Assembly (NCBI GenBank): GCA_020027965.1
Contig: JAHRHE010000067.1
Coordinates: 1 to 35,878 of the forward strand
Origin: Nitrospirota bacterium
Lineage (GTDB): Bacteria > Nitrospirota > Nitrospiria > Nitrospirales > Nitrospiraceae
Length of the DNA stretch: 35,878 nucleotides
Direction: 5' to 3'
Under the pieces are notes generated by a model. That model searched no databases. It was not told the origin of the DNA and was given only the letters and a program-made list of their open reading frames with translations. Made by a program: the position numbers and the translations under genes. Numbering within the stretch: the stretch's first letter is position 1; each line of letters starts with the position of its first letter. Shown here in pieces: positions 7,772 to 11,647 of this stretch.

Positions 7772-8173
7772 TTAGCTATCCCTTCGCGGCGGGGATTGCA
7801 GCGCATCCACCAGAGACTTCTCCAAGCGCTTGACCTTGCCCTGCAGGTCCACGGTCACCAGTTTGGCTGATCCCTCCACGACGACGCGTTGGCTGGTCCG
7901 TTCCAGGATCACATGAGCAAAGGTGAGCGACGTACGCCCGGTCTCAGCAAGCTTCGTTTCGATCGTGAGAACCTCCCCATAGCGGGCGGGTGACCGATAG
8001 TCCACCTCAGCATGAACCACGAGAAATTGTGTGCCCTCCTTGATGAGTCTGGCCACCGATATCCCACGTTCTTCCAGGTATTCTGTCCTGGCCCGCTCGA
8101 AGTACTTCAGGTAGTTGGCGTAGTACACCACCCCGCCGCAATCGGTATCCTCATAATAAATACGAACTTCCAT
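7772..8173 (-). CDS. ybgC: YbgC/FadM-type acyl-CoA thioesterase
   Basis: 133 aa hotdog-fold protein. YYEDTDCGGVVYYANYLKYF near the N-terminus is the 4-hydroxybenzoyl-CoA thioesterase/YbgC signature, with the presumed catalytic Asp at residue 11. VDYRSPARYGEVLTIET and RTSLTF follow in order, and length is typical (about 130). YbgC hydrolyses acyl-CoA thioesters and is linked in many Gram-negatives with the Tol-Pal system; no tol genes are nearby here. The start codon is preceded immediately by three tandem copies of the dispersed repeat, so the usual Shine-Dalgarno region has been replaced by repeat sequence. The 54-aa membrane protein gene follows without a gap. Confidence 0.9.
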   Translation of the reverse strand: MEVRIYYEDTDCGGVVYYANYLKYFERARTEYLEERGISVARLIKEGTQFLVVHAEVDYRSPARYGEVLTIETKLAETGRTSLTFAHVILERTSQRVVVEGSAKLVTVDLQGKVKRLEKSLVDALQSPPRRDS

Positions 8174-8261: not shown

Positions 8262-8645
8262 TTACTTTTTTCTTCGTTCTTCATCTTGTGAGCCTAGCCT
8301 CTTGATTAGGTTCCTCAGCATTCTGGCCTCATGATCCAGATCACCTAGAAGTTGATTCCAGTCTGGCTGGTTGAGGTATCCGAGCTCGAAGGCGACCTCG
8401 CCTTGAGTCTCCAGCTCGGCGCAGGAACCCAAGGCGATGAATAAGAACTGCCTGTATTCCCGGTTGTGAACACGGTTAAATCCTTCAGCCACATTCGAAG
8501 GAATGGACAGGGCAGCTCGCTTCATTTGTCCGACAAGTCCATAGAGCTCCTCTTTCGGAAATCCTTTGGTCACTCGATACACATCCAGCACTATCTTCTT
8601 TCCCAGCTTCCAAACATCCAAGTCACGGAAATTCTTGATTGTCAC
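8262..8645 (-). CDS. Four-helix bundle protein, 23S rRNA intervening-sequence (S23/IVP) type
   Basis: 127 aa from the GTG at 8645. An ATG-like start at 8693 would read through the dispersed repeat (MKRISSEAER), so the internal GTG, which gives MTIKNFRDLDVW, is preferred. NFRDLDVWKLGKKIVLDVY at the start, LVGQMKRAALSIPSNVAEGF in the middle and FLFIALGSCAELETQ later are the hallmark segments of the four-helix bundle family (TIGR02436) first seen in 23S rRNA insertions and related to the Avd accessory protein of diversity-generating retroelements. Its molecular function is not established; family members form pentameric, positively charged barrels. No reverse transcriptase is nearby. The gene lies between inverted copies of the dispersed repeat. 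Confidence 0.9.
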   Translation of the reverse strand: MTIKNFRDLDVWKLGKKIVLDVYRVTKGFPKEELYGLVGQMKRAALSIPSNVAEGFNRVHNREYRQFLFIALGSCAELETQGEVAFELGYLNQPDWNQLLGDLDHEARMLRNLIKRLGSQDEERRKK

Positions 8646-8676
8646 TAGCTCGCGCCTTGTCGTTCGTTCAGCTTCA

Positions 8677-8707
8677 GACGAGATACGCTTCACGCTTCAC
8701 GAACGAC
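8677..8707. repeat. Dispersed repeat, copy D (inverted relative to copy C)
   Basis: gacgagatacgcttcacg followed by cttcacgaacgac is the reverse complement of the arrangement seen in copies A and C. With copy C it encloses the four-helix bundle gene as an inverted pair 452 bp apart. It also lies 5 nt beyond the stop of the CARF gene. Confidence 0.75.
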
Positions 8708-8712
8708 AGCTC

Positions 8713-9990
8713 TTAGAGCACAAGCGTTGGAAACTCAGGGAGCGAGGTGTCGCTCACCCCGGTCAGCTTGACGACAATCTCGTATAGTTGCTGGAAGCGC
8801 TCCGCCTTGACCGGCTCGAACCCGTGTCCCAGCGCCGCTTTCGACGCCGCATCCAGGAGCGGTTTCATCTTGGCCCACTGCGTCAGGTAGGCCTGCCCCA
8901 TCTGATCGCCGAGTCCCGCCAGGGCGCGGAACTGCGCGTGCAGCGGCAGCTTGTATTTTCCGTCTACGTCGTCCAGATAGCAGGTCCGGCAGCTTTCTCG
9001 CAGTGCCTCAGGAAGCTGCTCGGGCTGCACGTCCCAGGTCTTGATCTTGTATTGCTTGAACAACCGCTGCTGCGAGAAGGCTTCGAGGGCGCGCACCAGA
9101 ACCACCATCGCCGCTTCGAGATGGTGGTCTGAGGCGGCGCGGCGACGCGCATGCGCGAGGAGGTCGTAGGCCATGGCTTCCTTGACCTCGTGGGGGTCCA
9201 AGACCAGCTTCTCCAAGAACCCGGCGTTCTGCTTGAGCGCCGGCAGCAACGCCTTGAGCCCCGGGGGAGCGCCCCAGACCGAGGCCATGTCCAGCGCCTT
9301 GATCGACGTTTTGAGCTTGTCCCAGGCCGGCCGGTACTGAAACCGTTCCCACAACCCATAGCCCTCGGAGAGATCCGCCAGGGCCCGGTACAGCGGCTTC
9401 TGCCCACCACTGACCCGCGCCTCGATCTGGTGGAACAGCACGGCCGCGGCTCCGAATGCGCCCCGATTGAAGTGGTCGCAGCCCTCGCCGCGCGAGACGG
9501 CGGCCGCCTCGTCCCAGGGATTGCCCTGCATCCAGACGCGCGGCTGCCCTTCCACGGTGACGACCTCTCCGGCGTCGCCAGCGCCTTCAGTACCACCCGC
9601 GCTCCCCGATTGACTCAAGGCGATGACCCGCGAGGTGTGCGCGAGACTCCCGAGCGCCATGGCGGCTGCCATGGCGGGGGTCGCACCGGTGAGGTCCACG
9701 ACCAGTTCACCGGCCTGCACCTCCCAGGTCCGCATCAGACCGGGGAGCGTTTTCGCCAGCGCCTGGTAGCAGGCCATGAAGCGTTGCGCGTCAGGGGTGA
9801 CCACCCAGTCCCAGCGTCGCGGCATCTGCGCGATGTGTGGTTGCACTGAGGCTTCCACCAGGCTCTTGGCGGACTCCGGCACGAAGAAACAGAGCAGCTC
9901 CGGCTTGAGCCGATTGATCGCATACACGGCGGCCGGCGCGTCGTCCGAGAACGCAATCAGCAACGCCTTGATGGGAGCGTCCCCGCTCAT
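8713..9990 (-). CDS. Orphan CARF-domain protein, TIGR02710/Cas02710-like
   Basis: 425 aa. Residues 5-150 look like a CARF Rossmann domain: KALLIAFSDDAPAAVYAI, then LVVDLTGATPAMAAAMAL with Asp99-Leu-Thr-Gly-Ala-Thr, the segment that in CARF proteins binds cyclic oligoadenylate. The C-terminal half is helical, with AYDLLAHARRRAASDHH and VVLVRALEAFSQQRL, which match the conserved helical region of the TIGR02710 CRISPR-associated family as I remember it. R284-x4-H289 fits the letter of an R-x4-6-H HEPN motif, but the family is not firmly known to be a nuclease. No CRISPR array or cas gene is in the window. A promoter with no leader precedes it (see 10000-10028). Confidence 0.65.
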   Translation of the reverse strand: MSGDAPIKALLIAFSDDAPAAVYAINRLKPELLCFFVPESAKSLVEASVQPHIAQMPRRWDWVVTPDAQRFMACYQALAKTLPGLMRTWEVQAGELVVDLTGATPAMAAAMALGSLAHTSRVIALSQSGSAGGTEGAGDAGEVVTVEGQPRVWMQGNPWDEAAAVSRGEGCDHFNRGAFGAAAVLFHQIEARVSGGQKPLYRALADLSEGYGLWERFQYRPAWDKLKTSIKALDMASVWGAPPGLKALLPALKQNAGFLEKLVLDPHEVKEAMAYDLLAHARRRAASDHHLEAAMVVLVRALEAFSQQRLFKQYKIKTWDVQPEQLPEALRESCRTCYLDDVDGKYKLPLHAQFRALAGLGDQMGQAYLTQWAKMKPLLDAASKAALGHGFEPVKAERFQQLYEIVVKLTGVSDTSLPEFPTLVL

Positions 9991-9999
9991 GTCCGGCGG

Positions 10000-10028
10000 A
10001 CTATAGCACCCCGACCCTGTCCGATCAA
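10000..10028 (-). promoter_or_regulatory. Sigma70-type promoter of the CARF gene, near-leaderless
   Basis: On the minus strand TTGATC (10023-10028), a 17-bp spacer and TATAGT (10000-10005). The -10 ends 9 nt before the ATG at 9990, so the transcript would begin at or within about 3 nt of the start codon. There is no Shine-Dalgarno sequence. Confidence 0.6.
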
Positions 10029-10042
10029 CCGCTCGCGCGGGT

Positions 10043-10071
10043 TTGACAGGGGACGAGCCGTCGCCTAGAAT
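10043..10071 (+). promoter_or_regulatory. Sigma70-type promoter of gmhA, near-leaderless
   Basis: TTGACA (10043-10048, perfect consensus), a 17-bp spacer and TAGAAT (10066-10071). The ATG at 10081 starts 9 nt after the -10, so the leader would be 0-3 nt; no Shine-Dalgarno sequence is present. The -35 box lies 14 bp from the -35 of the divergent CARF promoter. Confidence 0.75.
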
Positions 10072-10080
10072 GCGGCCTTA

Positions 10081-10650
10081 ATGAAAGACCAGGTCATGAA
10101 AGCTTTCGAGGACAGCGCCGAGGTGAAGCGGCGGTTTGCCCGCGAGCACGCGGACCGGATCGTGCAGGTGGCCAAGCTGATCGCCCGCGCCTTGCGGGAA
10201 GAGCGGAAGGTGCTGCTGTTCGGCAACGGGGGCAGCGCCACTGACGCCTCGCACATCGCGGCCGAATTTGTCGGCCGCTACCATCGCGACCGGAAGCCCC
10301 TGCCGGCCCTCGCCCTGGGCAGCGACCTGGCGGCGCTCACCTGCATCGCCAACGACTATGAGTACGCCGAGATCTTCGCCCGCCAGATTAAAGCCCACGG
10401 CCAGAAGGGAGACGTCGCCATCGCAATCAGCACCAGCGGGAACTCACCCAATGTACTGAAGGGGGTGGAGGCTGCGCGGGCGGGCGGGCTGATCACGGTC
10501 GGATGGACAGGTGGAACCGGCGGCAAGCTGGCCGGTCTAGTGGACCATTGTTTCACCGTCCCCTCCACCGTGACCGCCCGAATCCAGGAAAGTCACATCA
10601 CGCTCGGCCACGTCCTCTGCGAGCTGATCGAGGGAGAACTGTTTGCGTAG
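10081..10650 (+). CDS. gmhA: Phosphoheptose isomerase (sedoheptulose-7-phosphate isomerase)
   Basis: 189 aa SIS-domain protein, the usual length of GmhA. LLFGNGGSATDASHIAAEFVGRY is the GmhA signature covering the phosphate-binding loop, LGSDLAALTCIANDY follows, then AIAISTSGNSPNVLKG (second SIS loop) and QESHITLGHVLCELIE with the conserved His and Glu. It converts sedoheptulose 7-phosphate to D-glycero-D-manno-heptose 7-phosphate, the first step to ADP-heptose for LPS core. The adenylyltransferase of the same pathway, rfaE2, is at 22938. An ATG five codons downstream (10096) would give a short leader and is the alternative start. The next gene overlaps its stop. Confidence 0.95.
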   Translation: MKDQVMKAFEDSAEVKRRFAREHADRIVQVAKLIARALREERKVLLFGNGGSATDASHIAAEFVGRYHRDRKPLPALALGSDLAALTCIANDYEYAEIFARQIKAHGQKGDVAIAISTSGNSPNVLKGVEAARAGGLITVGWTGGTGGKLAGLVDHCFTVPSTVTARIQESHITLGHVLCELIEGELFA

Positions 10651-11647
10651 ATCTCGGCGCTCCTTCGACCAACTCCCTCGTTCGGCCCCGCCCCGCGCCC
10701 CCATTTCGCCGATCGACGTCTCCAGGCTGAAGACCTACTCGCTGAGCCGCAGGCACAGCAAGGTGCGCGTCGCCGATTTTTCCGTACCCTGGCGACGCGG
10801 CCGGTCATTCTCCCGTTTTCTTCAGACCCTCCCGGATATCCTGGCCGTCAAGACACTGCGCGCCGTAGTCCAGGCGATCGTGCGCGCGCACCGCCGTGGC
10901 CGTCCGGTCATCGTGGGTCTGGGCGCGCACCCCACCAAGGTGGGCCTGAACCCCGTCCTGGTGGACCTGATGGAGCGCGGCATCGTGACCGCCATGGCGA
11001 TGAACGGGGCCGTGATCATCCATGATTTCGAGCTGGCGCTGATGGGCCACACCTCGGAAGAAGTCGAGGCGGAGATCGATTCCGGCCGCTTCGGGATGGC
11101 GGAGGAAACCGGACGTATGCTGAATGAGGCCGTCGTCCGCGGGAGCAAAGAAGGCCTCGGTCTCGGCGAGGCCGTCGGCACCTACATCAACCTCCACAAA
11201 CGTCAGTTCCCGCATCGTCAGACCAGCCTGCTGGCAACCGGGGCTCGGCTCGGCATCCCCATGACGGTCCACGTGGCATTGGGAACCGATATCATCCACA
11301 TGCACCCCTCAGCAGACGGCGCGGCCATCGGGGCCGGGTCGCTGCTCGATTTTCGGAAGCTCGCGGCAGTCGTGGCAGGAATGGAAGGCGGGGTCTATCT
11401 CAATCTCGGATCGGCCGTCATCCTGCCGGAGGTGTTTCTGAAGACCGTCGCCCTCGGCCGGAACTTGGGGCACGCGCTCACGGACATCACCACGGTGAAC
11501 ATGGACTTCCTCCCCCAGTATCGCCCACTGACGAACGTGGTCAAGCGCCCAACCCAGAAAGGGGGCCGTGGCTATTCCCTCATCGGCCACCACGAGATTA
11601 TGGTCCCGCTGTTGGCCGCGGCCATTGTGGAAGAGATGCGTCACTGA
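10643..11647 (+). CDS. Deoxyhypusine synthase-like (DHS superfamily) protein
   Basis: 334 aa from a TTG at 10643 that overlaps the gmhA stop by 8 bp, with GGGAG 6 nt upstream; this implies translational coupling. After a basic N-terminal 40 residues come RPVIVGLGAHPTKVGLNP, MAMNGAVIIHDFELALMGHT, ALGTDIIHMHPSADGAAIGAG and GGVYLNLGSAVILPEVFLK, and the end reads GHHEIMVPLLAAAIVEEM. The order of motifs and the closing 'PLLAAAIVE' recall PF01916 (eukaryotic DHS ends LVFPLLVAETFA). True DHS modifies eIF5A, which bacteria lack; bacterial homologues include homospermidine synthases and proteins of unknown role. NAD binding is a reasonable inference, substrate unknown. Placement after gmhA hints at an envelope or sugar role. 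Confidence 0.55.
   Translation: MRRSRRSFDQLPRSAPPRAPISPIDVSRLKTYSLSRRHSKVRVADFSVPWRRGRSFSRFLQTLPDILAVKTLRAVVQAIVRAHRRGRPVIVGLGAHPTKVGLNPVLVDLMERGIVTAMAMNGAVIIHDFELALMGHTSEEVEAEIDSGRFGMAEETGRMLNEAVVRGSKEGLGLGEAVGTYINLHKRQFPHRQTSLLATGARLGIPMTVHVALGTDIIHMHPSADGAAIGAGSLLDFRKLAAVVAGMEGGVYLNLGSAVILPEVFLKTVALGRNLGHALTDITTVNMDFLPQYRPLTNVVKRPTQKGGRGYSLIGHHEIMVPLLAAAIVEEMRH

Follow-up and report, generated by a model that had tools for sequence, protein, structure and literature searches.

CARF-HEPN proteins are known as the RNA-shredding arms of type III immunity. For Thermus thermophilus Csm6 (TtCsm6; PDB 5FSH, 8JH1), two papers report that RNase activity is abolished by each of the substitutions R415A, N416A and H422A (PMC10897365; PMC4748810), that K137A abolishes both cA4 binding and RNA cleavage (PMC10897365), and that the HEPN cleft is proposed to bind ssRNA (PMC4748810). 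We analyzed a 35,878-nucleotide stretch of DNA from a Nitrospirota genome (the window), one gene of which encodes a protein that has the CARF-6H-HEPN layout in common with TtCsm6 over its full length; it differs from TtCsm6 in sequence (~19% identity), in having no equivalents of R415 and K137, and in not being encoded beside type III genes. The NCBIfam equivalog TIGR02710 scores the window protein, an orphan of the related family f19 (L097) and a type III-like copy (L102) all over its cut-off, whereas RNase and cOA receptor activity are predicted to be lost from the window protein, which also has no CRISPR-Cas linkage. Sequences of the family are already contained in the PADLOC model PDLC01812, which is listed among defence proteins.

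The CARF-HEPN kind is already known, and what is new is its dead and domesticated state as a core gene: far from being an isolated orphan, the gene encodes a Csm6 relative that is retained across the order and is very probably dead as an enzyme and blind to the messenger. None of the papers searched described the loss of the motifs, the status as a core gene of the order or the promoter/ybgC unit. Dead CARF-HEPN proteins in Nitrospira were not mentioned in the accessible portions of the sources searched (including PMC3710099, PMC12669027, PMC11229360, PMC8730458 and PMC4012209), with subscription papers mostly beyond reach.

The original prediction, made from the letters of the window, had described a CARF-like half marked by VDLTGATPAM (residues 98-107) and a helical half resembling TIGR02710. 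The HMM search bore this out, with TIGR02710 scoring 139 bits (curated cut-off: 83.9) over residues 21-410. The Pfam models for Csm6 HEPN and Csm6 6H were both over cut-off (Table 1), the Pfam Csm6 CARF model was under cut-off (E 0.27), and PADLOC CARF1--CARF_HEPN (PDLC01812) scored 722 bits across positions 1-418 of 418. A phmmer search of the PDB with the single window protein returned no CARF match, and a profile of its relatives was needed. The structure was predicted as a monomer by using AlphaFold2 with 48 sequences (window and related loci; mean pLDDT: 83.7; pTM: 0.74). Among solved structures, the top match of the predicted fold was TtCsm6 (Foldseek: 3.7e-13; VIA Z: 20.1, with an rmsd of 8.2 across 385 residues, a large value that probably reflects an uncertain domain arrangement in the model), and the CARF half by itself matched Can2 and Card1 (VIA Z: 13-15; ~2.0-2.6 A rmsd). 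By sequence and predicted fold, the window protein is thereby classed as a CARF-HEPN protein (Csm6/Csx1, TIGR02710).

Table 1. Features of the CARF-HEPN locus, in window positions
Feature	Position	Strand	Evidence or remark
CARF-6H-HEPN orphan gene	8713..9990	-	425 aa, ATG start; TIGR02710 family by model
CARF domain, residues 1-156	9523..9990	-	model secondary structure; VIA CARF matches ~6-158
6H linker domain, residues 157-270	9181..9522	-	PF22205 7.6e-11, residues 174-259
HEPN domain, residues 271-425	8716..9180	-	PF09670 1e-20, residues 273-410
Degenerate CARF motif II, residues 99-107	9670..9696	-	residue 105 is Pro at the cA4-binding Lys position
HEPN catalytic loop, residues 380-390	8821..8853	-	Ala382 replaces Arg of R-x6-H; His389 kept
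Extended -10 promoter TTGATC-17-TATAGT	10000..10028	-	ends 9 nt before ATG; 9/12 matches; leaderless-type
YbgC/FadM-type acyl-CoA thioesterase gene, downstream	7772..8173	-	TIGR00051 104 bits, over cut-off
23S rRNA-intervening-sequence (four-helix bundle) gene	8262..8693	-	PF05635 7.4e-35; between CARF-HEPN gene and ybgC
gmhA-type SIS isomerase gene, divergent	10081..10650	+	best NCBIfam matches are phosphoheptose isomerases, below equivalog cut-offs
GSU2086-family gene, after gmhA	10643..11647	+	NF052581 433 bits

To assess the functional motifs, 102 members from the order Nitrospirales (>43% identity to the window protein) and 17 relatives were aligned in 119 rows. All relatives (17/17) and none of the order members (0/102) carry the Arg of the HEPN R-x6-H motif, and its position in order members is occupied by Ala (98), Ser (2), Val (1) or Thr (1); the Asn following this position is kept in 65 of the 102. 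The motif His (His389) is retained in 95/102 order members, so that by sequence some residual chemistry is possible, and its replacements (Tyr, Gln, Asn, Ala) fall mostly within one part of family f2. L387, G388 and G390 of the same loop are invariant (102/102), with Gly388 standing near the lost Arg. CARF motif II reads D-Y-T-G-G-T-K-x-M in the relatives; its Lys is found in 17/17 relatives and in none of the 102 order members (Pro 73, Ala 22, Ser 5, Val 2), and Gly103, which is Gly in 17/17 relatives, is Ala in 95/102. Order members have also lost the Gly of motif I (position 15; Gly in 94% of relatives) and the loop Arg/Lys at positions 132 and 134, and at position 38 they mostly have Pro (90%) where relatives mostly have Ser (88%). 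Three further messenger-contact regions besides motif II therefore appear altered, where correspondence to TtCsm6 beyond K137 was inferred from spacing. In a profile alignment to TtCsm6, the lost Arg corresponds to R415 (loop R415-H422) and the lost Lys to K137 (numbering in the chain file is one below that in the paper).

The window protein carries neither the R-X4-6-H HEPN motif of Csm6/Csx1 ribonucleases nor the CARF motif II (T-x-G-x-K) of Csm6/Csx1 cOA receptors, and it is very probably dead both as an RNase and as a cOA receptor while being retained as a core gene. On the loss of these motifs, the reading as an RNase still triggered by cOA was rejected.

A match to the CARF-HEPN protein was found in 204/235 Nitrospirales genomes, corresponding to 141/153 genomes of good quality and 34/37 genera. 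This near-universal presence in the order, like the loss of both functional motifs, goes beyond the original prediction. Two of the 204 genomes (G353 and G355) match at E ~4e-32 only, which is the level of the type III-like paralogue, and the orphan gene was therefore counted in 202 genomes; G353 and G355 carry Cas10 and a type III-like paralogue, with neither an orphan-level match nor a ybgC match. The 31/235 genomes that gave no match include one that is 99% complete (G135), so the orphan gene may not be strictly essential. Scanning genome contigs for close relatives gave 57 loci with the record names Nitrospira, Nitrospirae/Nitrospiraceae and, for one locus on a short contig (L058), ‘uncultured Nitrosospira’. 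In a sample of the phylum, 109/295 matched, mostly from Nitrospirales. Phage records held no match to the protein and plasmid records held three weak partial matches (33-38% identity over 20-26% of the query). On these searches and a family-congruent tree, the idea that the gene is mobile or was recently acquired horizontally was rejected; the one row that breaks the congruence is G307, which is labelled f1 and groups with f3.

A maximum-likelihood tree was built from 62 rows, 45 of which form the order clade (support: 100/100); the sister of this clade, with a support of 100, is family f19 from the same phylum, represented by 4 rows at 37-40% identity. Because the tree was rooted for drawing only, the direction of change rests on the intact motifs of the relatives. 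The f19 orphans (L096-L099) resemble the Nitrospirales orphan in that no cas gene was recognized in the stretch read, and differ from it in retaining RNxSxLAHG and D-Y-T-x-G-T-K, both of which the Nitrospirales orphan has lost, and in adjoining other housekeeping genes. The neighbors of L096, L097 and L099 were named by eye as genes that we take to be NAD kinase-like, rho-like, prfA-like, murA-like and his-like, and that of L098 is presumably hem-like; the motif-intact orphans L096, L097 and L099 (in G042, G017 and G054, respectively) lie by the NAD kinase-like and/or rho-like genes. The gene was found in 5/10 f19 genomes (3/4 good ones), and 4/5 gene-bearing genomes have a Cas10 match over cut-off on other contigs; L096, L097 and L099 are candidate cOA-triggered RNases working in trans to Cas10 on other contigs. 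The 13 relatives that are more distant comprise 8 with a Cas10 match no more than 12 kb away on their contig, two (L108 and L112) with none in that range, one (L102) located ~12 kb from a Cas1, and two on short contigs. Together, this supports a path from a type III effector through a motif-intact orphan to a dead core gene on the Nitrospirales stem.

Conservation within the order was then compared between domains. Mean pairwise identity (every third row) was 0.53 for CARF, 0.69 for 6H and 0.66 for HEPN, with mean entropies of 1.46, 0.95 and 0.99 bits, respectively, which makes CARF the fastest-evolving domain and 6H the most conserved. The greater conservation of HEPN and 6H relative to CARF, the conserved loop around the lost Arg and the ssRNA-binding cleft proposed for TtCsm6 would each fit a protein that binds RNA without cleaving it, in which the dead HEPN cleft holds RNA as a regulator or chaperone and CARF is mainly structural. 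The conserved residues could serve the fold and the dimer instead, and we consider this reading possible but rather unlikely.

The surroundings of the gene were surveyed across 85 distinct loci, 82 of which had at least 600 bp downstream and 68 at least 3.5 kb upstream. The LPS heptose neighbor and the separate promoter that had been predicted for the gene were both recovered, as a gmhA-type SIS isomerase gene and an extended -10 promoter, respectively (Table 1). Upstream, the divergent gmhA gene was found in 55/68 loci and the GSU2086-family gene in 61/68; the latter, which has no Pfam match at 0.001, is tightly kept beside gmhA. A -10 with at least 5/6 matches was present in 99/99 distinct upstream regions of the CARF-HEPN gene (loci without a usable start or upstream sequence were omitted from this count, which is 99/107 under another start rule), and 76/99 also have a -35 with at least 4/6 matches. 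In the upstream rows as printed, the -10 is nearly always TATAGT after TGn and its end lies mostly 9 nt before the start. As a control, a -10 of equal quality was found at the first ATG of other long open reading frames in the loci in 101/1576 cases, a control that is loose because many of these reading frames are not genes. By its promoter spacing the CARF-HEPN gene would be leaderless-type, and it is natural to infer that the transcript starts at or next to the start codon and reads on into ybgC, at whose start no -10 was found nearby (0/91). A leaderless-type promoter as a peculiarity of the CARF-HEPN gene was rejected, as the gmhA start has one in 67/69 distinct upstream regions (-10 ending 6-12 nt before the start), giving a divergent pair of leaderless-type promoters; in the window, the gmhA promoter match (10043-10071, +) has 11/12 matches and is stronger than that of the CARF-HEPN gene.

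Downstream, a ybgC-type gene lies on the same strand within 6 kb in 73/82 loci, and in 28 of these the two genes are no more than 60 nt apart. The four-helix-bundle gene matches in 21/85 loci, most of which, the window included, have a CARF-ybgC gap of 440-550 nt, and no ybgC was seen near the CARF-HEPN gene in f3 (G300, L162). Across the 235 genomes, 187 hold both the CARF-HEPN gene and ybgC, 15 the CARF-HEPN gene only, 2 ybgC only, and 31 neither; the Fisher p-value of this table is not functional evidence because physical linkage and assembly gaps inflate it, and many of the double absences are probably assembly gaps. A cleaner case of co-absence than these counts is G369, in which a 325-kb contig keeps a hemL-like gene, gmhA and the GSU2086-family gene at the locus with the CARF-HEPN gene and ybgC missing there, and in which both genes were also absent in a genome-wide search. 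The search for YbgC absence covered seven genomes without the CARF-HEPN gene, and the positive control for the same query was run separately.

This neighborhood would be expected if the protein made direct contact with the YbgC-type thioesterase, as its partner or regulator, in phospholipid or envelope metabolism. The same-strand adjacency, the lack of a -10 at ybgC (consistent with read-through from the CARF promoter) and the co-absence, above all at the otherwise kept G369 locus, all point this way. Linkage and assembly gaps can yield co-absence, however, the four-helix-bundle gene or longer gaps intervene in many loci, and the f19 orphans adjoin NAD kinase-like and rho-like genes (named by eye) instead. 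The CARF-ybgC link may be mere physical linkage, and direct partnership with YbgC is a doubtful, if conceivable, account of the gene.

With D99, T104 and M107 retained, the CARF domain of the window protein may still bind something, and the orphan may bind some ligand other than cyclic oligoadenylate. The residues that replace the messenger contacts are themselves conserved in the order (Pro38, 90%; Ala103, 95%). One could thus imagine a CARF pocket retuned to metabolic sensing of a different adenine-bearing ligand from the neighborhood, for example CoA/acyl-CoA (YbgC-type thioesterase) or ADP-heptose (GmhA pathway), with signaling via 6H/HEPN to a partner in place of RNA cleavage; we hold this to be improbable.

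To assess the link to type III immunity, the source assembly (3.6 Mb; 263 contigs; 97% complete) was searched as a whole, and no match to the Cas10 palm, Cas1 or a SMODS cyclase was found; the window itself holds no direct-repeat array. The earlier statement that no CRISPR locus lies nearby therefore holds genome-wide for these three markers. Across the order, Cas10 was found in 18/235 genomes (14 over cut-off; no match in 217), Cas1 in 80/235 and SMODS in 22/235 (no match in 213), where the SMODS model defines the scope of the CD-NTase search. The linkage to or co-occurrence with Cas10 that characterizes a type III ancillary effector was not found. Set against a gene match in 204/235 genomes, the scarcity of Cas10 gives good support to the proposal that the gene has moved away from type III immunity, whereas the accompanying suggestion of a response to the cyclic nucleotide of another system was not supported, given the absence of the motif-II Lys (102/102) and the SMODS count.

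A separate, motif-intact type III-like paralogue coexists with an orphan-type copy in G127, G250, G218, G262 and G270; the alignment includes the orphan copies from G127, G250 and G270, all of them without R and K. G127, G250, G218 and G270, which carry Cas10, hold this separate motif-intact copy. One of them, G250 (Nitrospiraceae; one 4.7 Mb contig), has, besides the dead orphan, two separate Cas10 loci that are each accompanied by a different motif-intact CARF-HEPN gene.

That the protein is still an immune receptor, sensing a type III or CBASS cyclic nucleotide in trans and having a HEPN domain with a modified active site, would agree with its family assignment by model, with the retention of His389 and with the f19 sister orphans, which keep both motifs and mostly have Cas10 on other contigs. 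The Arg and Lys are nonetheless missing from every aligned order member, most genomes have neither Cas10 nor SMODS (the source genome having neither), and several Cas10 genomes carry a separate motif-intact copy, which makes continued immune sensing distinctly improbable. The coexistence of dead and motif-intact copies in some genomes could also suggest a cyclic-oligoadenylate sponge or a dominant-negative partner restraining active Csm6 copies. Most gene-bearing genomes show no Cas10, the Lys on which cA4 binding depends is absent, and the motif-intact copies are only ~20-26% identical to the orphan, so that hetero-dimers between the two are unlikely; this role is highly improbable.

The loss of both motifs and frame-disrupted copies in a few draft contigs (L006, L050 and L054) might be read as the decay of a relic left by a vanished type III system and now without function, but this has next to no probability unless the draft assemblies mislead. 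Against it stand dN/dS values of 0.047-0.196 (15 informative pairs of 16, the remaining pair being too similar), on which a relic pseudogene was rejected and which indicate strong purifying selection on the sequences compared, and the retention of the gene across the order at a single locus whose promoter is conserved.

On balance, we favor as probable that the gene is a domesticated pseudo-Csm6, the descendant of a type III effector that now serves as a non-enzymatic scaffold or regulator. Under this explanation, a Csm6-like effector of the TIGR02710 kind would have left type III immunity and passed through a motif-intact orphan stage, as in f19, before messenger sensing and RNA cutting were both lost in the ancestor of Nitrospirales. 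The present protein would neither sense cyclic oligoadenylate nor cut RNA; it would still fold, and probably dimerize, like Csm6, and its conserved 6H/HEPN surface may hold a partner protein or RNA. The likeliest setting would be the envelope or lipid work of its neighbors, the YbgC-type thioesterase and the GmhA-type isomerase, and a scaffolding or regulatory role in an envelope or lipid step is put forward tentatively.

Because the binding and cutting residues are lost and yet the locus is kept nearly order-wide, an immune protein has seemingly turned housekeeping. Public models still name the protein ‘CRISPR-associated’, and it stands as a warning that pipelines labelling by model score as ‘CRISPR-associated’ or ‘defence’ count dead proteins. 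The hosts include the nitrite oxidizers Nitrospira moscoviensis and Ca. N. defluvii, which are key to nitrogen cycling. With an orphan sister family and intact paralogues in the same phylum, the gene offers a rare stepwise record of the passage from immune effector to housekeeping protein.
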